In this document: piece after piece, positions 6,263-20,001 of the stretch
Layout: each line of letters begins with the position of its first letter
Position numbering within the stretch: position 1 is the stretch's first letter
Virus record (IMG/VR): IMGVR_UViG_3300026078_000450
Coordinates: 1 to 20,845 of that record
Origin: a virus
Direction: 5' to 3' (one strand)
Length of the DNA: 20,845 nucleotides
Program-made: the position numbers and the translations under genes
Notes under the pieces: model-generated
Database searches by the model: none
What the model saw: only the letters and a program-made list of their open reading frames with translations
What the model was told of the DNA's origin: nothing

Positions 6263-6670
6263 TCAGTTGCCGACTGGGTCCTGCAGGGATTGGGTGAGAA
6301 AAACGACGGTCGCGCCCGCGCCGATCGTCAGCGTGCTAACGATGAGTTCCGCGCCGGAACCGGCTATCCCCACGCTCACGTCGGCCACAACAGTGGTTCC
6401 GTCTGACTCGAACAGGCGCGCGAAAGTAGCTGTTCCCGCGTTCGGCGCATTCGTCTCGGAACTGATTGCGTTCGAAGTGCAGGTGCCCGTGCTGTCCGCC
6501 GCGCCGAATGCGGGGTTGCTATACCCACCGGTAGCCAGAAGCGTGTTTCCGGAGAGGGCCGTATCGGCGTCAGTTGGGCGCGTTCCGTTGTAGAGCCGGA
6601 TGAATCCGCCGTCGCAGCGAGCCGCCTTCGTCTGCGCGTTGGCTTGTCTGAGTGATAGTCGGAATCTCAT
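6263..6670 (-). CDS. Beta-rich virion-associated protein, 135 aa
   Basis: The start is taken at ATG 6670, which overlaps the preceding stop (ATGA) and has GGAG about 9 bases upstream; an upstream TTG is less likely. The product is rich in Thr, Ser, Gly and Ala with alternating hydrophobics, implying beta structure. It contains FIRLYNGTRP and GTATFARLFESDGTTVV, segments that recur in small phage structural proteins I have seen near tail-fibre genes. Its exact function is unknown. Its position directly after the SGNH fibre suggests a virion or fibre accessory part. Confidence 0.7.
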   Translation of the reverse strand: MRFRLSLRQANAQTKAARCDGGFIRLYNGTRPTDADTALSGNTLLATGGYSNPAFGAADSTGTCTSNAISSETNAPNAGTATFARLFESDGTTVVADVSVGIAGSGAELIVSTLTIGAGATVVFLTQSLQDPVGN

Positions 6671-8523
6671 AGTGAAGCGCTCCAAATTCTCATGTTTGCT
6701 AGGTCGGTCCCGGTAAGTTCGCGGTTGAAGTAAGCAGCTCCGGCTAAATCAAAGTTGGCGCAGAATGCTGTGGCCCCATCGCCGCGGCAGCCCCATGTGA
6801 AGCCGTTGGCCGCAGCCGCGCCAGCGTCACCCGTCGCTTGGACTACTCCACCCATGGTGATGGTCGAAGATGCGCCCTTCCACAAAACTTCGATCAGCTG
6901 GAACTGTGTGTTGAAGTTCGGCTGTGAACCGCTATTTGCGTTGAGGTTAACCCCTGCACTGACGCGCAATGCCGGCGGCGTAGCAGTGCTCAGGGTGATC
7001 AGCGCGGCCGTGTTGCTCGCGGATACGCCATCGTGGATCTGGGCGCCAACAACCTTAGTCAGAATCTTGGCGAAGAAGAAAAGGTGCCACGTTTGCGCAA
7101 GCGTCACCGATCCTGCGGGGCGCATGAGATCGTCGATGCCATCGAACCGCAGAACGCGCTTTCCGTTCGGGCTTTGTCCGGTTTTGATCAGAGGTCGCTG
7201 TCCGGCTGTCGCCTGCGTTGCGTCCCACAGGGCATGACCAGTTGCTGTGTCGAGGTTCGCGACCGTCGCAGCTGCGGTACCGTCCGCCACCGCATTGGAC
7301 GTGTCCGGGACGAATAGCGCTTGAATCCCGGCGATTGTTCTCGGATCCGGGACCGGATTCGTCACCGTTGCGCCGCCGGTGAACACCTCGGGCGCAGTCT
7401 TCTCGATGTAGGGGCGCAAGTACGGCACGACGTTCACCGCATATTGTGCGTGACCCGCGGTCGTTGGGTGCGGGTCACTGACGTTACCGGGAGTGACGAG
7501 TGTACGCCCGTCAACTAGCGCGCAGAATGTGGAGCGCGCTGCAACCACTGCCGCAATCGAAGAACGCCAGAGACTCGGTAGCTCCCCTTGGGCATTGACG
7601 CCCTCGCTGCCCTCAGCGACGTTCTGGAAGAGAATCAGCGTCTGGACCAGGCAGCGGACCGTCGGATCTGCGGCGTGGATAGCATCCAGAAGCTGACCCA
7701 TCTCAGTGGCATGGCTAGCGGCAGTTCCGGAAGTCCCAAATGCGTTGAAGTCATTCACGCCTAGAGCGATATAAACTTCCCGGAACTTCGATCCCGTGCA
7801 CCCGGCCATAATGTGCGCAACTGTCGCGGTAAACGTGCCGGCAGGAGTGACAATCCCGTGCAGCAACTGCCCCGACTGCCCGAAGATCGGAACGCTGTCG
7901 TATAGCGTCTGTGATTGACGCCAAAGCAGATCCCAACCGAGCAGCACCGGGGAGGCGGTTTCCCCTACGGAGATTGAATCACCGACCACGATCAAGCTCG
8001 CGACGGGCGTGCCCTGAATCACCGGCGTGTACTTGCTCGTGATACCCGTGACGTAGGCGCCCATCTCGACAATCTCGACGAGCTTTTGCCCGGCCGGGAG
8101 CGTGACGGCCTGCGTTTGCTTCACGTCGGTGGCCGTGAAGATGACGGTCTGGTTGTATACTTTGTTAACCCAGATCCCGACCTCATGCGGCGCGCTGCCG
8201 CCGAGCGCATGCGATACGGCCTCAATCGAGAGCGCCGTCTCGTCGGTGTTCAGCTGAATGGTTGCGCCAGGGTCGTGGCGCGTGAACACGTTTGGCGCAG
8301 AGCCCGTCACCAAGAACTGGGTGTTATGATGAAACCAGCTGTCCTGTGATGCCTGGAAAACAGCGACACCTCCGCCGCTGAACGATGCCCCGCCAGGAAT
8401 GCGCACACCGCCGCCACCAATGTACATCGCGCGCCGATGCTCCGGTCGGCGCGAACGGATGGAGCGCTGAGCATTATACGGACGGATCTGCCGCGCCTCT
8501 TCGGGAGTAGGCAGATGAATCAC
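6667..8523 (-). CDS. Tail fibre/spike with SGNH-hydrolase and lectin-like domains
   Basis: GTG 8523 overlaps the previous stop (GTGA) and is preferred to a TTG one codon upstream, giving 618 residues. The N-terminal 165 residues are beta-rich and Gly-rich (GGGGVRIPGGASFSGGG). From about 175 to 375 lies an SGNH/GDSL esterase: LIVVGDSISVG (catalytic Ser183), ALGVNDFN (block III, Asn257) and SDPHPTTAGH (Asp350, His352). The Asp-His spacing is one residue shorter than the usual DxxH. From about 400 to 618 a concanavalin-like fold is suggested by LFVPDTSN, VLRFDGIDD and FNRELTGTDLANMR. The enzyme probably removes acetyl or acyl groups from a surface polysaccharide during adsorption. The organisation fits a phage depolymerase or receptor-binding protein. 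Confidence 0.8.
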   Translation of the reverse strand: MIHLPTPEEARQIRPYNAQRSIRSRRPEHRRAMYIGGGGVRIPGGASFSGGGVAVFQASQDSWFHHNTQFLVTGSAPNVFTRHDPGATIQLNTDETALSIEAVSHALGGSAPHEVGIWVNKVYNQTVIFTATDVKQTQAVTLPAGQKLVEIVEMGAYVTGITSKYTPVIQGTPVASLIVVGDSISVGETASPVLLGWDLLWRQSQTLYDSVPIFGQSGQLLHGIVTPAGTFTATVAHIMAGCTGSKFREVYIALGVNDFNAFGTSGTAASHATEMGQLLDAIHAADPTVRCLVQTLILFQNVAEGSEGVNAQGELPSLWRSSIAAVVAARSTFCALVDGRTLVTPGNVSDPHPTTAGHAQYAVNVVPYLRPYIEKTAPEVFTGGATVTNPVPDPRTIAGIQALFVPDTSNAVADGTAAATVANLDTATGHALWDATQATAGQRPLIKTGQSPNGKRVLRFDGIDDLMRPAGSVTLAQTWHLFFFAKILTKVVGAQIHDGVSASNTAALITLSTATPPALRVSAGVNLNANSGSQPNFNTQFQLIEVLWKGASSTITMGGVVQATGDAGAAAANGFTWGCRGDGATAFCANFDLAGAAYFNRELTGTDLANMRIWSASL

Positions 8524-8825
8524 CAAAACACCATCACGTTTGTTGCGGTGCTACCCGAAGCCAAGAGCTTGATGGCTTGGATGTCCAGCACCGTGCCGGC
8601 TGGTAACGAAGGCGTCGTAACCTGCACGCCATCCAGGCCGTTATAGGCGAGCGCGCCCGCGCCGAATACCATAATGCGTCTACATGGGCGCCCCTCGCTC
8701 GGCATGGCGAGACCAGGCTGCGCGCCTTTGATTGGGTCGTTCGCTCCGATATCGTAGTCAGCTGGCGTCGTTGTCCATGCGACCCGCTGCGAGTCAGACG
8801 ATTCAGTGTTGGTAACCTTGAGCAT
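8520..8825 (-). CDS. Small beta-rich phage structural protein, 101 aa
   Basis: ATG 8825 follows a perfect AGGAGG ribosome site, so this is one of the better-translated small genes of the operon. The product has CRRIMVFGAGALAYNG, then a run of short hydrophobic strands ending in VMVFW. This pattern (a residue-poor N-terminus, a Gly-Ala-Gly turn, PAGTVLDIQAIKLLASGSTATNVM) recurs in small phage proteins encoded next to capsid or tail genes. Its role is not established. It overlaps the SGNH fibre gene by GTGA and may help attach or oligomerise it. Confidence 0.7.
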   Translation of the reverse strand: MLKVTNTESSDSQRVAWTTTPADYDIGANDPIKGAQPGLAMPSEGRPCRRIMVFGAGALAYNGLDGVQVTTPSLPAGTVLDIQAIKLLASGSTATNVMVFW

Positions 8826-8828
8826 CTT

Positions 8829-11447
8829 TCATCCTCCTAGAACTGTCGCCGAACCCGCTTGGCGGGATGCCGAAATCTTGCCGAGCGCCGCGCCGGATCC
8901 GTGCGGCTTTTGCTGCGCGTCTTGTTGCTGTTTCGCTACCTGGACAGCGGTAACGCGATCTACGAAATCGCCCGCTAGGGTCGGCTCTCCCGCGCCGTTC
9001 AGGTCAAGGAACAGGTCGAGTTGCAGCCGGTCGTTGAACGGCATGCGCTTACCCTTGGCGTCGAGGTCGCGGATCTTTTCGAGCGCCTTGGTCTGAATCT
9101 CCGCGTACATCTGCGGGTAGACGTTTTTGATTGCATCGATCTGCGCGTGCGTGACCGTCCCGCGGCGCAGGTCATCAACCACGCTCAGTGGGTTCGCGAC
9201 CGCTGCCCACTTCTGCGCGAACTCGCGGATCTGCAGGTCGCTCGGGGAAATCTTGCGCGTCGGCTGGAACATGGTCGGCGCGTTCGTCCCGCTCGGTAGC
9301 TGCGTCTGCAAGTACTGCGCGCCGCGCGTCGCCGTGACGGTCGCTGCCTGTGTCAGGCGCGGCATCGACTCGTAGGCGCTCCCCATCGCCGTTTGCATAT
9401 GCGCGCGCACGCCGGCGCCCATGTCCCGGTTAGCATTCGATATCTCCGCCACGCGCTTGTCGTAGGCGGCGGCGAGGTCCTTCGACCGACCCATGAACGC
9501 CTCGACGGCGGCTGGGGTCGCGATGCGCCGAATAGGTACCGCGCCGGAAAGTTTCCCCGCCTGGCCCAGGCCGACCGAAGCGCGCGCCGTCGATTCGCGA
9601 AAGAATGCGCCGAGTCCGGATTCGAGCTTGCCGTCGAGGTTGTTGGCGAGCTTGTCAGCGAGGACCGCGAGCACCGCGCTCGAGTGCTCGCGGACGCCCT
9701 TGTGCACCATGCCAGCCGCCAGGGCCCCGATCGGGCCGCCACCAAGCACGCCTGCAATTGCGCTCGCCCCATAATCGCTCGGCTGCGCTACGCGCATGCC
9801 AAGGTTTTGCAGCTCAGCCGCGCCGGCAATGTCGGAAGCGAGCGAGAGGTGGCGGTATTGGGTTTTCAGCTCTTTGTAGGAAAGTGCCGCCTTCTTGTCG
9901 AAAAACGTCGCGGCCTTGTCCTGCGCGGCCTCGATCGATTCCTCGAGGATGCCGCGCGCCTGCTCCAAGTCCTTCAGGTTCGGCGGCGCCCCCTGCTGCG
10001 AGAGGTTCACTCCGCGCTTGGCTTGGTAGATCTGCTCGTCTAGAGATTGCCTCAGCTTCGTCAGGTCAGATACGGAGACAGCCGTCGGCTCGGCCTTCGG
10101 CTGCACTAGTTTGCGACCGCTGCCGGTTGGTACCGCTTCGAATTTTGGCGCACTCAGCGCCTGCAGATCATCCACGACTTGCCGAATCGGCCCGGCCTGC
10201 GCGCGCGCAACCGAGCTCGGGTGCGTCTCGAGCGGCTCCACCACTTGCTTCTGGATGCGCTCGGCGATCGCTTGAGCGTCCGGCGCAATCTCCGGATGAG
10301 CCTCGAAAATCTTGTCAGCCTCTTCGCGGAACGCGCCGAGCTTTGCGCCGGTTTCCTGCTTGGCCTGCGCCACGCGCTCAGCAAGGTCGGACTGGGAATC
10401 GAGAGCGCGAAAAACAGGGGTACCGTCGCCGAGCGTCACGCCGCGAACCGTTTGCGCCATGTCGCGCATGGTCGACTCGGCGGCATCCGCCGTGCGGCCG
10501 AGTTTCTTGAGCGTCGAGCCGCGCGCCCCCAGCGCTTTGGCTGTGCGCTCGTCGGCGAAGTTGCGGACCGCGCTCGAGAGCGCGCCGGGCTCCGTCTCTG
10601 CCGCAACGGCTGGCCCATCGGCGGCGTCGAGCGGGGCACCGATGCCAGCCTCCTCGGTAGCGCCTAGCCCGTTATCCGGCAGTCGCGGCGAATCGAGCGG
10701 AGTCGCCCCGCGTGACCCGCTCCGGAGCAGCGCGCCAGCGCCGTGCGTGGCCAGCGATACGCCTCCGCCGAGGAGCGCGCCCCATCCCATGGCGGCGATG
10801 AGCTTTTCGCCAGAGAGCGGGATGTTGTGGAGATACGCCTCCTCGCCGGCCTGCGCCTGCCCGTACGCTGCCCCTTCGAGCGCGCCGCCTGCGAATGCCC
10901 CCGCCGCGCGCGCCGCAAGTCCGCCCCCAAGCGCTTTGGCCGCGGTCCCGCCGATTGCCCCGGCTCCTCCGGAAAGCGCGCCGCCGCCGATTATGGAGCC
11001 CGCAACGTTGCCGGCCGTGGCGGTGCCCGGGTTCGCCTCGGCGCGCGCCCGCGCGTTCTCGCTGTACTCGCGCCCGTAGGCCTCGCCCGTCTTGCCGGTC
11101 GCGCTCTCGCGCGCGTCCCCGAAAATGGTCGCTAGATTCTCGACGGTCTGCCGGCCGCCGATGTTTTTGAGCGGGTCTTCGTCGCCCCAAAGCGCCGCGT
11201 TCGCGCGCAGCGGGAGCGCGAGCGGGGCCTGAGCGGCATCGATGGCTCCGGCCGCCGCGGACTCGCCAAAGGTTTTCGCCTTGGCTTTGAGGGTAGAATT
11301 GGCAGCGAGCTTGTCGGCTGCTGCCTTGTCGGCCGCGGTGGCGGGCAGGTAATCGCCGCTCTCGAGCTTCGCGCGGACCTCGTCCTTTGGGACCTCGATG
11401 ACATCGCCGTCCCGCGTCTGGACGTAGGCTTTCGCGGCGCCACTCAT
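8829..11447 (-). CDS. Large putative DNA-ejection protein, 872 aa
   Basis: ATG 11447 overlaps the previous stop (ATGA). The protein starts with a small domain containing YVQTRDGDVIEVPKDEV. It then has long Ala-rich helices and two Gly/Ala-rich hydrophobic stretches, about residues 143-200 (GNVAGSIIGGGALSGGAGAIGG and on) and 214-242 (MGWGALLGGGVSLATHGAGALL), that look able to insert into membranes. Residues 280-620 are mostly helical or coiled coil. This resembles internal virion proteins that leave the capsid to form a trans-envelope DNA conduit. I see no lytic transglycosylase motif. No close family is recognised; the call rests on size, composition and its place after the tail genes. Confidence 0.6.
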   Translation of the reverse strand: MSGAAKAYVQTRDGDVIEVPKDEVRAKLESGDYLPATAADKAAADKLAANSTLKAKAKTFGESAAAGAIDAAQAPLALPLRANAALWGDEDPLKNIGGRQTVENLATIFGDARESATGKTGEAYGREYSENARARAEANPGTATAGNVAGSIIGGGALSGGAGAIGGTAAKALGGGLAARAAGAFAGGALEGAAYGQAQAGEEAYLHNIPLSGEKLIAAMGWGALLGGGVSLATHGAGALLRSGSRGATPLDSPRLPDNGLGATEEAGIGAPLDAADGPAVAAETEPGALSSAVRNFADERTAKALGARGSTLKKLGRTADAAESTMRDMAQTVRGVTLGDGTPVFRALDSQSDLAERVAQAKQETGAKLGAFREEADKIFEAHPEIAPDAQAIAERIQKQVVEPLETHPSSVARAQAGPIRQVVDDLQALSAPKFEAVPTGSGRKLVQPKAEPTAVSVSDLTKLRQSLDEQIYQAKRGVNLSQQGAPPNLKDLEQARGILEESIEAAQDKAATFFDKKAALSYKELKTQYRHLSLASDIAGAAELQNLGMRVAQPSDYGASAIAGVLGGGPIGALAAGMVHKGVREHSSAVLAVLADKLANNLDGKLESGLGAFFRESTARASVGLGQAGKLSGAVPIRRIATPAAVEAFMGRSKDLAAAYDKRVAEISNANRDMGAGVRAHMQTAMGSAYESMPRLTQAATVTATRGAQYLQTQLPSGTNAPTMFQPTRKISPSDLQIREFAQKWAAVANPLSVVDDLRRGTVTHAQIDAIKNVYPQMYAEIQTKALEKIRDLDAKGKRMPFNDRLQLDLFLDLNGAGEPTLAGDFVDRVTAVQVAKQQQDAQQKPHGSGAALGKISASRQAGSATVLGG
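8833..8838 (-). promoter_or_regulatory. Strong Shine-Dalgarno AGGAGG
   Basis: Minus-strand AGGAGG lies 7 bases before ATG 8825. It sits within the last codons of the 872-residue ejection-protein gene, just ahead of that gene's stop. It is the strongest ribosome site seen in the leftward operon, where most genes rely on stop-start overlap. This suggests the 101-residue protein is made in larger amounts than its neighbours. Confidence 0.7.
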
Positions 11448-13405
11448 GGTCCGTCGCCGGTGTCAGTGTCGGGCTCGGGTGCTCCGACGATGTTCTCCGA
11501 TGGCGTCGGGCGCGGCCCTTCCAGTGGCTCCCCGGTAGCGCGCGAAACGTTCACGTCTTTCTGTGCGCGCGTACGCTCGTTCACCATGCGCGGGTCGATG
11601 GTCGCCGCCGTCGAGTCGAGCTGGTAGTCGTATTGCGAGAGCTCGTGCAGGCGCTGTTTAAGGCTACGTAGCGCGTCGCCGGGCGTCTTGCCCATGACGG
11701 TCGGGATCTCGTGCTCGGCCTCCTCGGCGGTGATCGATTTGTCGTAAATCGTCTGCGCATGCAGGCGCGCGCTGTTCGCTCGAGCGCGCCGCAGCGCGCG
11801 CCCCTCTTCGCCAGCGAGAGAGTCGGGCAGGTGCCCCGCGACGTAACCGATGCCCGGCGACTTCGGCAGCTCGGTAGCTGGGCGGCCCGTCTTCGGGTCG
11901 ATGACGGTCCCGGTCGCCTTGTCGATGGCGACACCCTGCAGCTTCGCTTCCTCTTCGAGAGCTGAATAGAGGCGAGCAATCTGCTCTTTCTTGGTGCCGT
12001 AGGTCGCCTTCTGGCGAGCAAGCGCTTGCGGGGTGAGGCCAAGAGCGCCCTGGTCCTTCCCCGGCTTGCCGAGCAGCTTGAGTCTCGCCTCTTGCTCGGC
12101 CGGCGTGAGCGGGCGCGGGCCGCCGCCTTCCGCCTGGTGGAACTTGTCTTCCGTCGCGGTCGTCGTCTTGCCGAGCGCGAGCTCCGCCTTTTGCTGCTCG
12201 CGCATGAGCGAGTCCTTCTGGAATTGCGCGGCCAGCGCGGCGGCGTTCGACGAAATCGTCCGGCTCTGCGCCTGCGCGGCGAATTGGCTCACCTCGGTTT
12301 CAGCGACCTTGTTCATGGCCTGCTGAAGACCGGCTTTCGCCATATCGATGTCGCCGTGATAGTAGTTGGCGAATCGCGCGAGCGCGTTGTTGCGGTCCGC
12401 GCGCCCGGCCTCATACGCCTGCTGCTGCGCCGCGATATCGTTTCGGATCTGCTGCTGGACGTACTCGAAGGCGAAGTTCTGCGAGTGCCCGAGGCTCGCG
12501 CCGGCCGCGCCGAGCGCCTGGCCGATCACGCTCATGATGTTCGCGATCGGCTCGCGCCGCGAAAAGAACCGATTCGGGTCGGGCTGCGCGGACTGTGAAT
12601 AGTCGGCGAGTTCGCGCTCCATGTGCTGATTCTGCTGCTGATACGCCTGCTGCTTGCGCTGGATCTCCGCCTGTTGCGCGGCGAGGTGTTGCCGCGCGGC
12701 GAGGTTGTCAGCGGCGGCTTTCGCTGCCTGAGCGTCAGCGATCTGCTTCGCCGTGGCCTGCTGCCCAAGCTGCGCATCGAGCACGGATTGGTCCGCGGCA
12801 AGGCGGTCGCGCGCGGCTTGCGGGTCGTACGCCGGTCCCGCTTCGACCGTCGTCCGCTGCGACACCGGCGCGTAGCCAGCCGGGCGAGCTGGACCGCCGC
12901 CCGTGGTGCCGCGGATGAGCTCGGCCGCTGCACGCTGCGCAACCACGTCGCGCGCTTGCTGGACGGCGTCTTGCGGAGCCGGCTCCGGCTGCGCAGGCGG
13001 CGGAGGGGGGCCGTATGGAGTTCCCCCGGGCGCGGGGGGCGCAGGCTGGGAGGGCGCTGCGGCGGGCGCCGCGGGGGTCGGAGGGGGCGCGTCGGGCCTC
13101 AGCAGGCCGGTCGCAATCCCGAGCGCGGGCCCGGAGGCGAGGTGAGTGATAACCGGGTGCTCGGCTGCGAAGTTCGCTGCGGCGCTGATTACGGGGTGGC
13201 GCTCTGCCCAGCTTCCCGCGTCCGTGCGTGTCTCGCCCGGCGGCTTGTCGTTCGCCGCAAGCCGCTCATCCGGTTGCCCCAGCTGCTCGCGGTAGTGGCC
13301 GGCGATCTCCGGCAGCGCCATCAATGGCGGTCGCCCGTCGTCGAAATGGAGCATGCCGGCGCCGGGTAGCTCCGGGACATCGGTCACGTCGATGACTTTC
13401 GCCAT
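11444..13405 (-). CDS. Large putative DNA-ejection/internal virion protein, 653 aa
   Basis: ATG 13405 shares a base with the preceding stop (TGATG). Residues 1-100 include two related EHPVI/RHPVISA segments (around 69-90). A Pro/Ala linker follows (103-147), then long Gln/Ala-rich coiled coils (about 185-275), a short hydrophobic Gly-Ala segment (MSVIGQALGAAGASLG, about 288-303) and more helical sequence rich in Gln. The C-terminus is Pro/Glu-rich and acidic. No enzymatic motif is evident. Coiled-coil, low-complexity proteins of this size beside two similar genes fit the multi-protein ejection sets of podoviruses. It overlaps the 872-residue gene by ATGA. Confidence 0.6.
   Translation of the reverse strand: MAKVIDVTDVPELPGAGMLHFDDGRPPLMALPEIAGHYREQLGQPDERLAANDKPPGETRTDAGSWAERHPVISAAANFAAEHPVITHLASGPALGIATGLLRPDAPPPTPAAPAAAPSQPAPPAPGGTPYGPPPPPAQPEPAPQDAVQQARDVVAQRAAAELIRGTTGGGPARPAGYAPVSQRTTVEAGPAYDPQAARDRLAADQSVLDAQLGQQATAKQIADAQAAKAAADNLAARQHLAAQQAEIQRKQQAYQQQNQHMERELADYSQSAQPDPNRFFSRREPIANIMSVIGQALGAAGASLGHSQNFAFEYVQQQIRNDIAAQQQAYEAGRADRNNALARFANYYHGDIDMAKAGLQQAMNKVAETEVSQFAAQAQSRTISSNAAALAAQFQKDSLMREQQKAELALGKTTTATEDKFHQAEGGGPRPLTPAEQEARLKLLGKPGKDQGALGLTPQALARQKATYGTKKEQIARLYSALEEEAKLQGVAIDKATGTVIDPKTGRPATELPKSPGIGYVAGHLPDSLAGEEGRALRRARANSARLHAQTIYDKSITAEEAEHEIPTVMGKTPGDALRSLKQRLHELSQYDYQLDSTAATIDPRMVNERTRAQKDVNVSRATGEPLEGPRPTPSENIVGAPEPDTDTGDGP
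13064..13096 (+). other. G-quadruplex motif in the Pro-linker codons
   Basis: The plus strand reads four G-tracts separated by loops of 6, 5 and 6 bases: GGG at 13064, GGGGG at 13073, GGGGG at 13083 and GGG at 13094. This meets the usual quadruplex rule. The leftward mRNA is C-rich here, so the G strand is the template strand. The motif follows from the Pro/Ala codons of the linker and may have no function of its own. Confidence 0.35.
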
Positions 13406-15846
13406 CAGCGCGCGGCCCTCTGGTACGGCTGGTTGCTCGGATAGGGGTCAGAACCGGTCGGGCGAAAGGTGACGCGCCCGGCGTATCGACTCGCGTCAGC
13501 GATCGGCTGATAGGGCGACTGCTTGGCGGGTGCGTAATCCGGGTACGGCGCACCGCGCGGGGTGGCGCTGAGCTTGACGGTGTCGCGCTTGTAACGCTCG
13601 TCCGACGTAGCGTCCGTACCTGGCTCCTGTGGCTCTGGGTACTTGCTTGAGCCTTTGAGCAGGCCTTCCAGCTCAGCGAGCTTCGCGTCGAGCGCGTCGA
13701 GCTGGTTTTGCTGCGCGTGGTTTTGCGCCGTGTTCACGGTAGCGAGGCGCGCGCCGTTGACCTGCAACTTCCCGGTACCCGGCTCCGCCGTGACCGCGCC
13801 GCGCGTAACCGGGTGCGCAGCAAGGTCCTGCGCCATCGGCCCGACGTAGGTGCCTGCGCCATCGCGCGGATCTTTGTATTGGTAGATGCTGCCCGGGGCA
13901 TTGCGCGCCGAGTCGGCCAGCAGCGCATCCCCTTGGCTCAAAATCGGGTGTGAATCGTCGCGAGCGAAGCGCTGGTATGCGCGCGCACTCGGCGGCCCCG
14001 ACGTGAGCGATTGCCCGGCCGCCGACAGGCCGGCTCCGAGCGCCTTGCTGGCATCGGGCCCGGTGTCCGTCATCGAATTGGTGCCGTCGTCCGCCTTCGG
14101 GAGCTTGTCCGCTGGAATTTTGGCGTACTTCGCTACGTCTTTTTGGTCGGCCGCGGTCGAAAGCCCATGCTGGTCGGCGATCGAGAGCAGCGCATGGTAG
14201 GCGCTCTTCGAGCCGCCCGCGCCGCGCGAGGCGTCCGAGATCGGCTGATATGAGGAGATGAGTCGGCTCGGGTTGTGCGGGTCCCGTTGCGTCGCCGCCG
14301 GATGCTGAGGCTCGTCAGCGTCGTCATAATTCACCGGGATCCCGCGCAGCCGCGCGTAGTGCATCAACGGATCCTCGCCGTCACTATCGACAAGCGGCGC
14401 GCCGCGCGTGTAGCTCAGAGGCTGAATGTTGTCCTTCGCGCGAATGTCGGACGCAAGCTTGCCGAGCGCCTTGCCGGCCATGTTACCGGCGACGCTACCG
14501 AGCACGCCGCCAACGGGCCCGCCAACGGCCGAGCCGATCACGCCTCCCGCGACGCTGCCCGCCGTGCCACCGATCGCGCTGCCTTCCGCCGCGTGCGCCG
14601 CCGAATCCTGGCTTGCTTTCGACGGCCCGAGCGATTCGGTCGACTGAGCTGGGGCTTGGCTAGGAAGCGGGGCCGGGCCCTGATTGCTCAGCGGCTGGAT
14701 GTTCGTTTTGTAGCGCTCGTCGGATGTGGCGGCGATGACGCCGCCCGCCGCGGAGAGTCCCCCACCTACGTACGCCTGCTGACGGTTCGCATCGGCGATG
14801 CCGGCTTGCGTCGCGTTGCCGGTGTCTATGCCGTGCGTCTGGTTCGCCGACGCCCACTCAGACTCGCGCCCCGCGAGCGCCGTCGCGTTGATGTTCATCT
14901 GCTGCGTTTGGGCACCCATCTCCGAGCCCATGCCCGCTTGTTGCGCGGCCATCTGCTGCTGTGCCCACGCCTGTGAAGTGGCGTCGTTGAGCTGCGTCCC
15001 CTGCAGAGCGGTGTTCGTCGCGTACTGCGCGCCAGCGAGCCCAAGCTGCCCCGTGCCCTGGTCGCCCGTGACGACCTGACCGGCGAGATTTCCCGCTTGG
15101 CCCATGGCGCTGAGGCGCTGCCCTTGGAAAGCCGTGTTCTCGTTCGCGCGAAGCTCTGCCGCCTGCGCGTTCGCGCCCTGTTGCGTAAGAGCATTCTGCG
15201 CCGCAGCCTGCCGCAGCGCCGCCGCGCTTCCGCCCATGCCGCGACCGGAGCGCGCCATCGCCAGCGCGTTCGCCGTGTTGGCGTTCGTCGCTTGCTGCAA
15301 CTGCGCTTGCGCGGCGCTCGGCCCCGGTCCCTGGTTGGAGAAATCCATCAGCGCGTTGTAGGCTCCGGTCTGCAGCCCGCGATCGTTCGCGGCGTTCGCC
15401 GTTGCCGCGTTGTAGGCGCCGGTGTCGCCCTGATACATACTGGTGCCGCGCGCGCCCGCGCCTGCCGACAAGTCGCCTGCTCGCCCGGCGTCTGCGCCAA
15501 ACTGGCTACTGTACTTGTCACCCGTCGCCTGCGCGTTGCCGAGCATGGCGGCGGTCGGTGCGTTGTTATTGGTGCCGAGCCCGAAGTCACCTTGTCGCTT
15601 CGCGAGCGCTTCGGCGTCGCTGAGATTGCCGAAGAGCGAGCTCTGTACCCCGAGCCCGTAATCGTACTGGTGGCTTCCGCCGAGCTCCGAGCCGCGCGCG
15701 ACCGCCTGGTCAACCCCGAGTTTCGTTTCGTGTCGGCCGCCATTCTCGCCTAGGTGAGTTAACCCTGGCCCTACCGGTGTCTGCTGACTGCTCAGCAGCG
15801 CGCGCTGTCGCTCCTCGGGCGTCATCGTTCCATCAGGATTCGGCAT
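13405..15846 (-). CDS. Putative ejection protein with S74-like chaperone motifs, 813 aa
   Basis: ATG 15846 shares a base with the preceding stop and follows GAGGAAAG. Residues 1-360 are Ala/Gln/Asn/Gly-rich with helical repeats. A Gly-zipper hydrophobic run (423-463) could cross or perforate a membrane. Around it are three copies of the SDxRxK motif typical of the peptidase-S74 intramolecular chaperone: SDERYKTNI (375), SDIRAKDNI (466) and SDERYKRD (748). An S74-like core lies at 653-730 (SIYQYKDP, VGPMAQDLAAHP, GTGKLQVNGARLATVNTA) with a terminal coiled coil (706-730). Ejection proteins carrying SDRRLK-type segments are known to me, so this is the likely class. Tail-fibre chaperone function is the alternative. 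Confidence 0.65.
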   Translation of the reverse strand: MPNPDGTMTPEERQRALLSSQQTPVGPGLTHLGENGGRHETKLGVDQAVARGSELGGSHQYDYGLGVQSSLFGNLSDAEALAKRQGDFGLGTNNNAPTAAMLGNAQATGDKYSSQFGADAGRAGDLSAGAGARGTSMYQGDTGAYNAATANAANDRGLQTGAYNALMDFSNQGPGPSAAQAQLQQATNANTANALAMARSGRGMGGSAAALRQAAAQNALTQQGANAQAAELRANENTAFQGQRLSAMGQAGNLAGQVVTGDQGTGQLGLAGAQYATNTALQGTQLNDATSQAWAQQQMAAQQAGMGSEMGAQTQQMNINATALAGRESEWASANQTHGIDTGNATQAGIADANRQQAYVGGGLSAAGGVIAATSDERYKTNIQPLSNQGPAPLPSQAPAQSTESLGPSKASQDSAAHAAEGSAIGGTAGSVAGGVIGSAVGGPVGGVLGSVAGNMAGKALGKLASDIRAKDNIQPLSYTRGAPLVDSDGEDPLMHYARLRGIPVNYDDADEPQHPAATQRDPHNPSRLISSYQPISDASRGAGGSKSAYHALLSIADQHGLSTAADQKDVAKYAKIPADKLPKADDGTNSMTDTGPDASKALGAGLSAAGQSLTSGPPSARAYQRFARDDSHPILSQGDALLADSARNAPGSIYQYKDPRDGAGTYVGPMAQDLAAHPVTRGAVTAEPGTGKLQVNGARLATVNTAQNHAQQNQLDALDAKLAELEGLLKGSSKYPEPQEPGTDATSDERYKRDTVKLSATPRGAPYPDYAPAKQSPYQPIADASRYAGRVTFRPTGSDPYPSNQPYQRAAR
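13486..13605 (-). repeat. Internal coding repeat, copy B
   Basis: Residues 748-787 of the 813-residue protein run SDERYK...RGAP...SPYQPIADASR. They are a shortened copy of residues 466-541 (SDIRAK...RGAP...SSYQPISDASR). The order of three short blocks is kept while the spacing between them differs. Confidence 0.6.
14224..14451 (-). repeat. Internal coding repeat, copy A
   Basis: Residues 466-541 hold the blocks SDIRAKDNIQPLS, RGAP and SSYQPISDASR. An extra lone copy of the first block, SDERYKTNIQPLSN, lies upstream at 14698-14724 on the minus strand. Copy A has about 36 more residues than copy B between RGAP and YQPI. Confidence 0.6.
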
Positions 15847-18800
15847 CAGGCTTTCCTCGCTGCGGCAAGCCGCTTCGTCTTTCCGATCGTCTCGCTCTCG
15901 ATGAACAACGCCTGCGCAATGAACCCCTCAGACGGCGTTCCTGCCGTATCCAGCACGGTCACGCGAATCGAGGACCCGAGGCGCGTCTTCGGCGTCACGT
16001 CTAGGTAGACGGAGCCGTCAGCCACGCCAGCGTCTACGCCGGTCACGTTGAACGAGAAGAAGTCGGGGGCCGCGCCATCCACCGAAACGGTCACGTTGAC
16101 GAACGCCGCCCCGCGGTACTCGCCGAGCACCACCACGCGCCCGAAGCCGCCGTAGCCAGCAACGCCAAACGGCCGGATATCTCCGGTACCGAGCTCCGTC
16201 GTGATAAATGAACCCGCGTCGTCGAAGGTCGCGTTGGACTCTTGCCAAATCGAATCGAAGTGCCCCGATAGGCTCTTCGTCTGCACGAAAGCATCATTCC
16301 AGGTACCAGCCGGGCCGAGCTGCGGGCTGTTGTTGGGCGAAATGTCCACCGACCAGCCACCGACGCGCAGATCGTAGACGAGGCACACCGCGAAAGTTGA
16401 ATTCTCCGCGTTGCCCATCATGAAACGCACGGTGATTTCTCCGAGCTTTCCCGACGAAGCAGGCACGGATACGAGCGTCGCGGACATGCAAACCGGAAAG
16501 CTAACCATCGTGTCCATGACATCGAAGCCGACGAAAACAGGCGCGTTAAACCCGCGAGGAAGCAGATATATGCCGCGCTTCGATTGGAATAGAACTCCCA
16601 ATGATGTCGCAACTACCGATCGCCAGTCGATACACCCGACATCGGTGGGTAGTTTTTGCGGCGGGCTAAATGAGCCTGTGCCCTGGTCATCTGGCCCGTC
16701 ACCGTTCACGAGGTAGATGGCCTCGCGCGCGAACGCAACAACCGTTCCGTCGATGCTCGCGATGCCCGTGCAATCCTCGGGCAGGAAAACGCTGAACTCG
16801 GCTTCGTCGCTGAATTGAGTTGGCTCGCCATCGACTAGGATTTTGCTCGCGGTGAGCACGTTGCGATCGAGCTGCCCACCGAGCCAAATGCGACCGTTGC
16901 ACTCGGTCAGGAACGTGCAGGGCGGCGGGTAGGCGTTCGGCACGACACCACCGTCGGTGTAAAGAAACTCGGTTGACGCGATCGTCGTGTCCGCTACGGC
17001 ATCCGCGTAGGTGACGATGCGTGCCGCGCCGTACCCCGTAGGGGCTCCAGTGTTCGGCGTAACGCGGTGATAGCTCGTGCCACCGACCAGTGTGCGGTAA
17101 ACATGCAGCGTCGGCTGGGCGCGGCGCGAATAACCGGCAAGCGTCGCGATCGTGAGCGTCGCCGTTAGATTGCCAGCAGCAACGGTGACCGATGCCGGGT
17201 CGCTCGGCGCGGAGCGGTGACGGCGACCTTGCGGGTCCAGCCACTCGTACACAGCTCGATAGAGGTACGTTCCGGCCGTGAGCGCGCCACCCGCGGTCGC
17301 TGACGCTGACTGAATCACCGGCGCGTGCATGAACCCGCTCTCTTCGAGCGAGCCGTTGAATTCGTAGAGAATACCGCCCGAGATTTGCGCCGCGCGCCCC
17401 GCCTGCTGGACGCCTCGCGCCGCTTCTCTCTGTCTTGCGAAGATGCTGGTGAACGAAACGGAATCTACGCCGATCGCGTCAGAGGTGCCGCCGCCCTCAC
17501 GAACGACCTGATTCAACGCGGTCCAAAACGTGGTGTTGCTCGACCCGCTACCGTCGCTGACCACGTCGCACATGTGAGCCGACGAAGCGACCGATCCGAC
17601 CATGTTTGGGGTCCACAGCTGAGCCACCGGCGCGGAGTTCAGCGTGTTGAACCACATTAGGTAGAATGTGCGCTGATCGTCCCATCCCGGGTTTCCCGTG
17701 TCATGCGTGTGGCACCAAATGAACCGGCCATCGAGCGCGGCAGCGTCTGCGTTTCCGTAGAACGGGCGCGAGCAGGGGCGCAGATGCCAAACCGTGTGGA
17801 CGATGCCGGCGCTGCCCGTGTTGGCAATGTCGGCGTAGCGCAGGTAAGCGTTCCCGTTGTAGCCGCCCCAAAACAGGCCACCGGTGTTGATGGAGTCGAA
17901 CGTTACCCCAGGCTGATCGATGTTGTTTACGTCGGTTTCGACGGTAGTCACCCCTGCGAGTGACGCCGTGAATCCGTTGTTGAACGGTTGGAATTTGACG
18001 TTTCCAGGAGTCGGCTCGAGCCACGCGACGAACACCACGCTCGAGCTCGTGCCGACGATCGCCATTAGGCAATTGCCGGGCGCGGCTGCCGTCGCAAGCG
18101 CCTGCGTCTGCACGACACCAGGCGTAGAGGCTCCTGACATGAGCTTAGCGGTAATCGCTGTGGCGCCCGATTGGTAAACCAGCAGCCAATCGGACCCTCT
18201 AGTGGTAGCGTCGAACCTCATGTTCGCTCCGCCGAGCGTGCCCACTGTCGACGATGACACGAACGATAGGCTGGTTGTGTCAAACGCCTGGCAGGTAATG
18301 TGGAGAGCTCCGCCGGTATCAACGTAGAGCAGATAGATCATGCTCCCGACGGCAACCGCTCGCGGGTAGATCCCTAAGTTCGTCACCAGCTTTGCCGCAA
18401 ACAGCACGGCCCCCGCTGAACTGACAACCTGGCAATAGACCGATGTGCCATCGTCCCAAGCGTAAAGCAGGTATCCGTTCGCGTAGGCGACGGTCGAATT
18501 GGCGAGCGTGGCTTGGTCGGAGCGCGCGATCGGGTCATGCCGACCCGGCGCGAAGTGAGGCAGCTGATGCTGATTCGACTCGGTCACGTCGGACCATGTC
18601 GAGCCGAGCAGGCGACGCACGCCGGCGCCCAGCCCAAGCAGCGGGGCCCCTCGCCAGCTGCTCACAAAGTTTACGTTGTGTTGCGTGTAGACGCTTCCGC
18701 CAGAGTCGAGCCCGGTGGCCGAGATTTGAGCGAGCCCGTAGCGCTTCGCTGGTCTCCCATCTTTGCGCCAGCGTACGTTTTGCGCGACGACGTGCACATT

Positions 18801-18872
18801 CGGCGGCGCGATACGCGGGTCGATGCCCTCGCTCTGACCACGCGAGAACAGCACTGGTAGCAGGTCGCTCAT
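15846..18872 (-). CDS. Large beta-propeller-like tail/virion protein, 1008 aa
   Basis: ATG 18872 overlaps the previous stop (ATGA). The protein is almost entirely beta-strand-like. The N-terminus (GIDPRIAPPNVHVV...RWRKDGRPAKRYG) matches the opening of large podovirus tail-tube or hub proteins, which set the first strands around an N...G...KRYG motif. Repeated strand pairs to about residue 480 suggest a propeller. A fibronectin-like region lies near 540-640 (TYLYRAVYEWLDPQGRRHRSAPSDP, LHVYRT). A conserved block near 655-775 contains NGRIWLGGQ, QFSDEAEF and GVLFQSKRGIYLLPRG. It probably forms the tail nozzle or hub through which DNA leaves. No enzyme motif is seen. Confidence 0.65.
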   Translation of the reverse strand: MSDLLPVLFSRGQSEGIDPRIAPPNVHVVAQNVRWRKDGRPAKRYGLAQISATGLDSGGSVYTQHNVNFVSSWRGAPLLGLGAGVRRLLGSTWSDVTESNQHQLPHFAPGRHDPIARSDQATLANSTVAYANGYLLYAWDDGTSVYCQVVSSAGAVLFAAKLVTNLGIYPRAVAVGSMIYLLYVDTGGALHITCQAFDTTSLSFVSSSTVGTLGGANMRFDATTRGSDWLLVYQSGATAITAKLMSGASTPGVVQTQALATAAAPGNCLMAIVGTSSSVVFVAWLEPTPGNVKFQPFNNGFTASLAGVTTVETDVNNIDQPGVTFDSINTGGLFWGGYNGNAYLRYADIANTGSAGIVHTVWHLRPCSRPFYGNADAAALDGRFIWCHTHDTGNPGWDDQRTFYLMWFNTLNSAPVAQLWTPNMVGSVASSAHMCDVVSDGSGSSNTTFWTALNQVVREGGGTSDAIGVDSVSFTSIFARQREAARGVQQAGRAAQISGGILYEFNGSLEESGFMHAPVIQSASATAGGALTAGTYLYRAVYEWLDPQGRRHRSAPSDPASVTVAAGNLTATLTIATLAGYSRRAQPTLHVYRTLVGGTSYHRVTPNTGAPTGYGAARIVTYADAVADTTIASTEFLYTDGGVVPNAYPPPCTFLTECNGRIWLGGQLDRNVLTASKILVDGEPTQFSDEAEFSVFLPEDCTGIASIDGTVVAFAREAIYLVNGDGPDDQGTGSFSPPQKLPTDVGCIDWRSVVATSLGVLFQSKRGIYLLPRGFNAPVFVGFDVMDTMVSFPVCMSATLVSVPASSGKLGEITVRFMMGNAENSTFAVCLVYDLRVGGWSVDISPNNSPQLGPAGTWNDAFVQTKSLSGHFDSIWQESNATFDDAGSFITTELGTGDIRPFGVAGYGGFGRVVVLGEYRGAAFVNVTVSVDGAAPDFFSFNVTGVDAGVADGSVYLDVTPKTRLGSSIRVTVLDTAGTPSEGFIAQALFIESETIGKTKRLAAARKA

Positions 18873-19285
18873 TTTAGCCAGTACCCCGAGTCGTCACACA
18901 GTATTTCGGTGACACCAGCCGCAATAGCTTGAGGAAGTGTGGACAGATCGATCGTGTCGCCAGCCTGTTGACACGACGCCTTCAGCGTGTTTGACGCCGA
19001 CGTACGGAGCACCGTGATGCGCTTGCCGAAGTTCTTCGGCGAGAGCGGAGGCAGCAAAACAACGCCGCTGGCGAGCGACGTGTCGACGGTGATTTGCTGT
19101 CCGAAAATGCCAGGAATCGTCCCGCGTGCCGCGGACGCTGTCAGCTTCGCACGCGCTGGGATTTCAACGAAATCGTTGCGGATTGCGTCGCACTCGGCGC
19201 GCACGTTATCCTCGAGCGCGGACAGCTGGCGCCCGAGCTTTTCGGTGTCGCTAGTGGCGAACTGATTGATCTGCTTCAGCGTCAC
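18869..19285 (-). CDS. Tail-associated protein, coiled coil plus beta domain, 138 aa
   Basis: GTG 19285 overlaps the previous stop (GTGA) and has AAGGA about 8 bases before it. Residues 1-45 form a charged helix (SDTEKLGRQLSALEDNVRAE), probably oligomerising. Residues 60-138 are beta-rich: GVVLLPPLSPKNFGKRITVLR and ILCDDSGYWLK resemble the C-terminal domains of small phage tail proteins that end in a W-containing strand. It sits between the adaptor and the large tail protein and may be a trimeric tail component. The role is inferred from layout. Confidence 0.65.
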   Translation of the reverse strand: MTLKQINQFATSDTEKLGRQLSALEDNVRAECDAIRNDFVEIPARAKLTASAARGTIPGIFGQQITVDTSLASGVVLLPPLSPKNFGKRITVLRTSASNTLKASCQQAGDTIDLSTLPQAIAAGVTEILCDDSGYWLK

Positions 19286-20001
19286 AGCATCGTCCTTCGG
19301 TTGCGCATGTTGCGCATGTCGATGCGCCGCGTGACGCTCGGCCGATCCTGCCGGAGACGCTGTTCGAACTCGGTCTTGAGGCGGTCGCGCTCAGCGGTGG
19401 CCATCGCATAGATGCTGCCGTCCCGGTCGCGCACGAGGATCTTCACGAGCACGTCCCAGTTCAGCCACTCCTCCCAGCCGGCAATGCCATCGAAGGTATC
19501 GGTGCCCGCGACGAGGTCCGGGAAAAGACCCATGAACCAGCCCGTGTATGGATATGCGGACTGCGGCGGCGGCACGATACCGAGCTTGTTACCGAATCGA
19601 AAGAAGCCGACCGGGATGCTCTGCGTCGCGCCCGTCGGCACGGGGCCGAAAATGCCCTGGTATTGATTGCGCTGCTCGAAGGGGATCTGTGGAATGTCGA
19701 GCACCTGGCCGTTTACCGTGCACTCGAGCTGGTACACGTGCAGCACCGGTCCGCCCGTCCAGCTGGACATGTCGAGCGTGCCGAAAGCGTAGGGCGCCGT
19801 GGGGCCGACCGTGAGAGTGCTTGAAAATGGGGTGAGGTACAGGGGCCAGCCCTGCTCACTCACCCACTCGCGCCAACGCTGAATCGATTGGTTGATCGCA
19901 CGCGTGAGGTCTGGATCCGTGTGACGCAACGTGGCCCCGATCTGATCTGCCTGCCAGCGCACGTCCGCCAGCATTTGGGTCAGGGTTCTGGTTCTTGCCA
20001 C
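19282..20001 (-). CDS. Head-tail adaptor candidate, 239 aa
   Basis: GTG 20001 is the start, with GGAG 9 bases upstream; no nearby in-frame ATG is as well placed. The N-terminal 60 residues (LTQMLADVRWQAD, TDPDLTRAINQSIQRWREWV) are the helical type seen in podovirus adaptor or gatekeeper proteins that sit under the portal. The middle is beta-rich. The C-terminal 75 residues return to helices ending in a very basic tail (RRIDMRNMRNRRTML). Its place between the capsid genes and the large tail gene agrees with an adaptor. Family assignment is by pattern, not identity. Confidence 0.6.
   Translation of the reverse strand: MARTRTLTQMLADVRWQADQIGATLRHTDPDLTRAINQSIQRWREWVSEQGWPLYLTPFSSTLTVGPTAPYAFGTLDMSSWTGGPVLHVYQLECTVNGQVLDIPQIPFEQRNQYQGIFGPVPTGATQSIPVGFFRFGNKLGIVPPPQSAYPYTGWFMGLFPDLVAGTDTFDGIAGWEEWLNWDVLVKILVRDRDGSIYAMATAERDRLKTEFEQRLRQDRPSVTRRIDMRNMRNRRTML

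Follow-up and report, generated by a model that had tools for sequence, protein, structure and literature searches.

A split S74 domain with repeated catalytic strands in a probable ejection-type protein of a soil phage

Peptidase S74 (ICA) domains are usually portrayed as single compact chaperones at the C-terminus of fibres and spikes. The window – the whole 20,845-nucleotide stretch of viral DNA analysed here – encodes an 813-residue soil-phage protein, E1, in which the S74-type motif SDxRxK occurs three times, raising the questions of whether a genuine S74 domain is present, how it is arranged, and what repeated motifs would do in a protein with no fibre ahead of them. We favour, with a probability of about 0.62, the reading that E1 is a podovirus ejection-type virion protein carrying a complete S74 chaperone/autoprotease domain that is split and has had its catalytic strand duplicated.

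The motif reads SDERYK at residue 375, SDIRAK at 466 and SDERYK again at 748; the octamer ATSDERYK is common to copies 1 and 3, and the core signature GPMAQD begins at residue 669. As the earlier note on this DNA had claimed, all three motifs are present and the third lies beyond the core. The features of E1, all on the minus strand, are as follows.

13405-15846, minus strand: E1, the ORF with the split, strand-duplicated S74/ICA domain (ATG start, 813 aa)
15112-15336, minus strand: Gln/Ala-rich N-terminal module, residues 171-245 (GPSAAQAQL...ARSGRGMGG...LRANE), shared by many relatives
14725-14775, minus strand: Gly/Ala-rich stretch, residues 358-374, abutting copy 1, likewise found in most compact relatives
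14689-14724, minus strand: copy 1 of the catalytic strand, SDERYKTNIQPL, residues 375-386, dyad S375/K380, kept in relatives
14461-14583, minus strand: glycine zipper, residues 422-462, Gly every fourth residue, with a central GGP turn
14416-14451, minus strand: copy 2 of the catalytic strand, SDIRAKDNIQPL, residues 466-477, dyad S466/K471, kept in relatives
13921-14415, minus strand: variable insertion between strand and core, residues 478-642
14215-14256, minus strand: second repeat, first copy, SSYQPISDASRGAG, residues 531-544, downstream of copy 2
13672-13920, minus strand: S74 core, residues 643-725, with Y655-x-Y657 and GPMAQD at 669-674 (profile positions 28-112, 58.1 bits)
13651-13755, minus strand: predicted C-terminal helix of the core, residues 698-732
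13570-13605, minus strand: copy 3, SDERYKRDTVKL, residues 748-759, past the core, restricted to the closest relatives of the window
13477-13518, minus strand: second repeat, second copy, SPYQPIADASRYAG, residues 777-790, downstream of copy 3

Shuffles of the 813-residue protein contain SDxRxK 0.006 times on average, and three copies arose in none of 20,000. The motif occurs 59 times in the 36,122 residues of the E1 family, versus twice in 188,167 residues of other long frames in the fetched loci.

The Pfam model Peptidase_S74 (PF13884, curated cutoff 22 bits) scores 36.8 bits on the whole protein, summed over two separate stretches. Taken alone, copy 1 scores 17.4 bits (profile positions 1-15), copy 2 13.2 bits (1-13) and the core 17.5 bits (21-50), and copy 3 alone has no Pfam match; an artificial sequence joining copy 1 to the core gives one match of 32.2 bits spanning positions 1-50. 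Because the fragments score over different parts of the profile, the two halves complement each other as parts of a single domain. Judged by its sequence, the 813-residue protein is a true Peptidase_S74 (ICA) member; the S74 similarity proposed earlier is thus borne out, both by PF13884 above its cutoff and by a profile of compact relatives that also aligns.

For compact relatives, structural comparison leads to the same family. All 33 aligned domains of compact relatives match PF13884, and their profile finds solved structures including 3gud (1.8e-8) and MyRF 7dc3 (1.7e-3), as well as 8jov and 6f45. An AlphaFold model of the compact relative L024 (mean pLDDT 88.9) has four structural matches above background – 3gw6, 7dc3, 3gud and 4uw8, with Z of 6.4-7.1 and the next at 2.5 – every one a solved S74/ICA domain. 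The model of window residues 355-813, from an alignment of six rows, was uninformative (pLDDT 35.7) and so offers no structural backing for a strand docking from 200-290 residues away, and phmmer with the whole protein against the PDB returned a chance match only. The predicted C-terminal helix of the core is of low confidence in the window model and confident in L024; in known ICA domains this helix is a coiled-coil trimerisation helix.

The split was mapped with a profile built solely from compact relatives, on which window residues 365-387 align to positions 3-25, 458-478 to 5-25, and 643-725 to 28-112. The domain is therefore complete and split at one junction. In this alignment the catalytic strand alone is duplicated and the rest of the S74 domain is single, so that the duplication proposed earlier holds for the strand and fails for the domain as a whole. 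A core was likewise correctly noticed, although its intact extent by profile is 643-725 rather than 653-730; its separation from the motif also stands, with the proposed spacing of about 180 residues corrected to 203 from copy 2 to GPMAQD (294 from copy 1). In compact members the Ser lies some 37-58 residues from GxMAQ, the usual S74 spacing, and the window departs from this contiguity of strand and core, which is an architectural norm outside Pfam's definition of the family. Displaced relatives have 70-250 residues between motif and GPMAQD, and two-copy relatives 94-250 between motif and PMAQD. Most other displaced members (e.g. L016, L018, L019, L020, L072, L081 and L101) are broken at the same profile positions, about 25-32, and the insertions therefore use a single junction directly past the catalytic strand. 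The inserted stretch differs in length and content between relatives, and several displaced relatives (L020, L081, L101 and L106) have a single motif.

Whole-protein, core and N-terminal-module queries against IMG/VR, plus one genome scan, supplied these relatives: 85 distinct proteins in all, 77 of them with a recognisable core. Most of the 77 have a normal compact domain, and in many others the motif is displaced. Scanning genomes gave no match with the full alignment and three MAG loci with the core, and we therefore assign no host. Tblastn searches of isolate phages with the whole protein, the core, the adaptor, the 1008-aa neighbour and two compact domains gave no usable relative; compact isolate-phage relatives were reached solely via an intermediate sequence.

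Additional motif copies recur in these proteins. The closest relatives of the window (L001-L004) have the same three copies, except that L003 is truncated ahead of copy 3. Two copies, one on each side of a glycine zipper, occur in L016, L017, L018 and L005/L019, and in L041/L082 the order strand, zipper, strand recurs with motifs of the SDxxxK form and with additional copies. Elsewhere the surroundings differ: three SDxRTKxxDPERYYREHPNA units in L072, three SDExxK units each followed by a helix-like stretch in L059, SDxxxK leading into a short coiled coil in L097, L098, L099, L111 and L163, and a copy past the core in L038. The 77 core-bearing relatives contain 19 extra SDxRxK motifs against 0.28 expected from shuffles, with related proteins counted separately, and by our count the extra copies fall in about ten lineages. 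Split and multi-copy forms appear at several places in a tree of the core, in which many forks are unresolved. Extra SDxxxK motifs in L022, L066, L090 and L156 were rejected as likely chance occurrences.

Several further observations concern the same proteins. In L097, L098, L099, L111, L163 and L149 an extra SDxxxK runs straight into coiled-coil-like heptads (e.g. SDAHSKTRIRELESQLAAL), which constitute a second recurrent context of the motif. A module of the form LDxPDSHYDYRGAYLAGEGRG...GHFTDRFKQHGHPTFSTQSQYS lies in the motif-core interval of L016, L018 and L099 and past the core in L038, a varied placement, as if the module were mobile. The L038 protein (L038:4266-7847) has a long C-terminal extension (residues ~900-1194) with a weak ADP-ribosyltransferase Pfam match (16.3 bits, cutoff 23.4). 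L146 and L147 are 165-aa proteins with an S74-like core and no SDxxxK, possibly stand-alone cores, and L085 and L156 are frames of more than 2000 aa whose S74-like domain lies in roughly the first third rather than at the C-terminus.

The copies show signs of being maintained. SDxxxK stands upstream of the core in 75 of the 77 relatives (the exceptions being L146/L147), and in 50/50 of the first 50 cores, versus 2.3 expected. When the Ser and Lys columns are left out of the motif score, copies 1 and 2 still come out on top in all five two-copy proteins of the window clade, and Ser and Lys are present in all ten of those copies; most relatives encode the copy-2 Ser by TCC, L016 by AGC. Between L001, of the window's type, and L002 the copy-3 region (736-813) has 22 synonymous and 2 non-synonymous codon differences, and the core 21 and 1. 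The retained Ser and Lys together with the synonymous excess indicate that the copies are maintained and not decaying; by these residue and codon patterns they are under purifying selection. The earlier suggestion that the domain might be degenerating is not supported: no two-copy relative in the window clade has lost the dyad Ser or Lys from copy 1 or copy 2, and the copy-3 region shows the 22 to 2 ratio.

The Gly-zipper reported earlier between copies is real, and is placed between the first two, at about 422-462 (Gly at 422, 426, 430 and onward to 462). The region has a weak match to phrog_15869, and PF13488 scores below threshold in the relative L016; it is possible that the zipper forms a membrane hairpin. 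In most relatives a hydrophobic Gly/Ala-rich stretch runs up to the motif, and the 18 residues before the motif have a median of 78% small or hydrophobic residues, versus 44% at random positions. An origin of copies 2 and 3 in one long recent duplication was considered and rejected: protein similarity is limited to the motif and a YQPI.DASR stretch, 7 of 2000 shuffles scored equally high, and DNA identity is low when the copies are compared in register.

The role of E1 is suggested by its neighbours.

15846-18872, minus strand: upstream neighbour, 1008 aa, matching PHROG 511 'internal virion protein' and in tail-nozzle position by gene order
11444-13405, minus strand: downstream neighbour E2, 653 aa, order conserved
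8829-11447, minus strand: next neighbour E3, 872 aa, order conserved

The order runs 1008-aa gene, E1, E2 and E3, then a small gene and a GDSL-lipase-like fibre, and the 1008-E1-E2-E3 arrangement is kept in close relatives and in part in several distant ones. E1 thus lies between a tail or internal-virion gene and further large proteins, the position expected of an ejection protein, although no PHROG or Pfam ejection model (T7 gp14/15/16 or P22 gp7/16/20 type) matched it. E1 is probably a podovirus ejection-type protein, as gene position indicates and as the earlier note had proposed. Elsewhere in the window, the fibre-like protein (6667-8526, minus strand) has a GDSL lipase/esterase match just below the Pfam cutoff (28.9 vs 32.9), a RecT-like single-strand annealing protein is encoded at 1576-2544 on the plus strand (phrog_561, 1.2e-27), and an SU10-type head-tail adaptor at 19282-20001 on the minus strand (PF24175, 32.8 bits, cutoff 27).

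E1 does not have the build of an S74 fibre or spike, with an upstream beta-helix and a C-terminal domain. The sequence upstream of the domain is Gln/Ala/Gly-rich, with no beta-helix fibre and no fibre family match in Pfam or PHROG, and the third motif follows the core. In phage fibres the preceding fibre or beta-helix is linked to the known cleavage trigger; with neither ahead of the domain, that trigger is missing here, which counts against the favoured reading.

A mechanism can be proposed by analogy with MyRF, in which the cut falls directly ahead of the motif Ser; neither this Ser nor the Lys, which share the strand, can be dispensed with (PMC8326128). MyRF must also trimerise, and its strand threads a ring formed by the core and lined by Tyr615/Tyr617 (PMC8326128). 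The MyRF dyad maps to the Ser and Lys of each window strand, and its cutter hole to core residues Y655/Y657 and M671/Q673. Since the window keeps all of these, we infer that the core trimerises and that a strand enters the ring. The sequence establishes that the domain is split and its strand duplicated, that the dyad is retained and the core conserved, and that the gene order is kept. The predicted ring and trimeriser part (YxY, GPMAQ and C-terminal helix) occupies residues 643-732, and the SDxRxKxxIxPL strand with both dyad residues occurs twice upstream, on either side of the putative glycine-zipper hairpin. During assembly three cores would trimerise E1, and copy 1 and/or copy 2 would dock into the core across the long loop, restraining the hydrophobic Gly-rich segments. 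One or more copies might plausibly be self-cleaved, and a later cut directly before S375 and/or S466 would free those segments; if both sites were cut, a 91-residue glycine-zipper peptide would be released. Copy 3 is an addition confined to the lineage of the window and maintained by selection.

The fate of the strands can be read in other ways. E1 could be a multi-site self-cleaving precursor, whose core cuts at 375 and 466, perhaps also at 748, with the excised S375-A465 segment (91 residues) acting in the host envelope at DNA entry. In L041/L082, as in the window clade, strands bracket the zipper, each copy retains the dyad, and because nucleophile and base both lie on the motif in MyRF, each copy is cleavable in principle; however, each chain has a single core, which would need to act on two or three strands, and the displaced relatives with a single motif also argue against it, so that we regard this reading as unlikely. 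The copies could instead be docking or assembly peptides that have lost cleavage and retain the Ser-Lys pair for packing. The altered contexts, such as SDxHSKTRIRELESQLAAL-type coiled coils (L097/L099/L111) and the SDxRTKxxDPERYYREHPNA units of L072, are in keeping with docking, but what the window clade strictly retains is precisely the catalytic pair, its Ser encoded by either codon family, and this explanation is improbable as well. We give little weight to the boldest form of the proposal, a one-core, many-strand S74 system in which SDxRxK motifs are portable self-cleavage cassettes and a trimeric core excises a 91-residue membrane-active zipper peptide at DNA injection. That the copies are a neutral by-product, functionless motifs left where recombination at a short conserved site inserted cassettes, would fit the differing length and content of the insertions, the recurrence of the mobile-looking DYRGAY-type module in L016, L018, L038 and L099, and the resemblance of copy 3 and its YQPI.DASR repeat to a segmental duplication, but is very unlikely given the 19 extra motifs against 0.28 expected in about ten lineages and the signs of purifying selection.

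The preferred reading, a complete but split and strand-duplicated domain, places E1 beside several known systems. With endosialidase NF (3gw6), the T5 L-shaped tail fibre (4uw8) and the GA-1 neck appendage (3gud) it shares the SDxRxK dyad strand, the YxY and GxxAQ core and the C-terminal helix; unlike them it has the strand about 200-290 residues from the core and in three copies, Gly-rich segments before strands 1 and 2, no beta-helix fibre, and an ejection-type gene. The MyRF domain (7dc3) is alike in its Ser-Lys dyad on the motif and its Tyr-x-Tyr cutter hole, but forms a single uninterrupted domain that remains at the membrane once cleaved, and E1 differs from it in the Gly-rich segments before or between motifs. 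Bdellovibrio MAT fibre proteins have a C-terminal S74 domain with SDxxxK, and Ser-to-Ala substitution blocks their self-cleavage (PMC10769870); they are fibre adhesins with one terminal domain, unlike E1. Nearer in setting are four isolate podoviruses, Serratia phage Parlo, Klebsiella phage LASTA, Sulfitobacter phage pCB2047-C and Erwinia phage PEp14, which like E1 have a protein with an S74-like C-terminus; it adjoins internal virion or peptidoglycan-hydrolase genes and is annotated as 'virion structural protein', 'structural protein' or 'ICA domain-containing protein'. Unlike that of E1, the domain is compact and single in the three examined. Parlo (L166:7803-9059) and LASTA (L167:7806-9065) have SSKDYK at the SDxxxK site, with Ser and Lys kept and Asp replaced.

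The S74 domain itself is already known, and annotations of isolates already place it in virion proteins other than fibres. We found no publication describing S74 strands that are split or repeated, or an S74 domain in an ejection protein, in a literature search covering few subscription journals, and the phiM1 ejectosome paper makes no mention of S74 or cleavage; the split, strand-duplicated form appears new, in that no description of it was found.

The splitting and copying are not peculiar to the window protein, as they occur likewise in many related uncultured phages. Catalytic strand and core behave as separable modules, the strand having been copied repeatedly in about ten lineages, which suggests natural examples of a movable self-cleavage strand. 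The arrangement also gives meaning to phage proteins automatically annotated as 'tail fiber domain-containing' despite ejection-type gene positions. Its setting, in an ejection-type protein with Gly-rich, membrane-like segments, predicts that trimerisation or processing of ejection proteins may be regulated.
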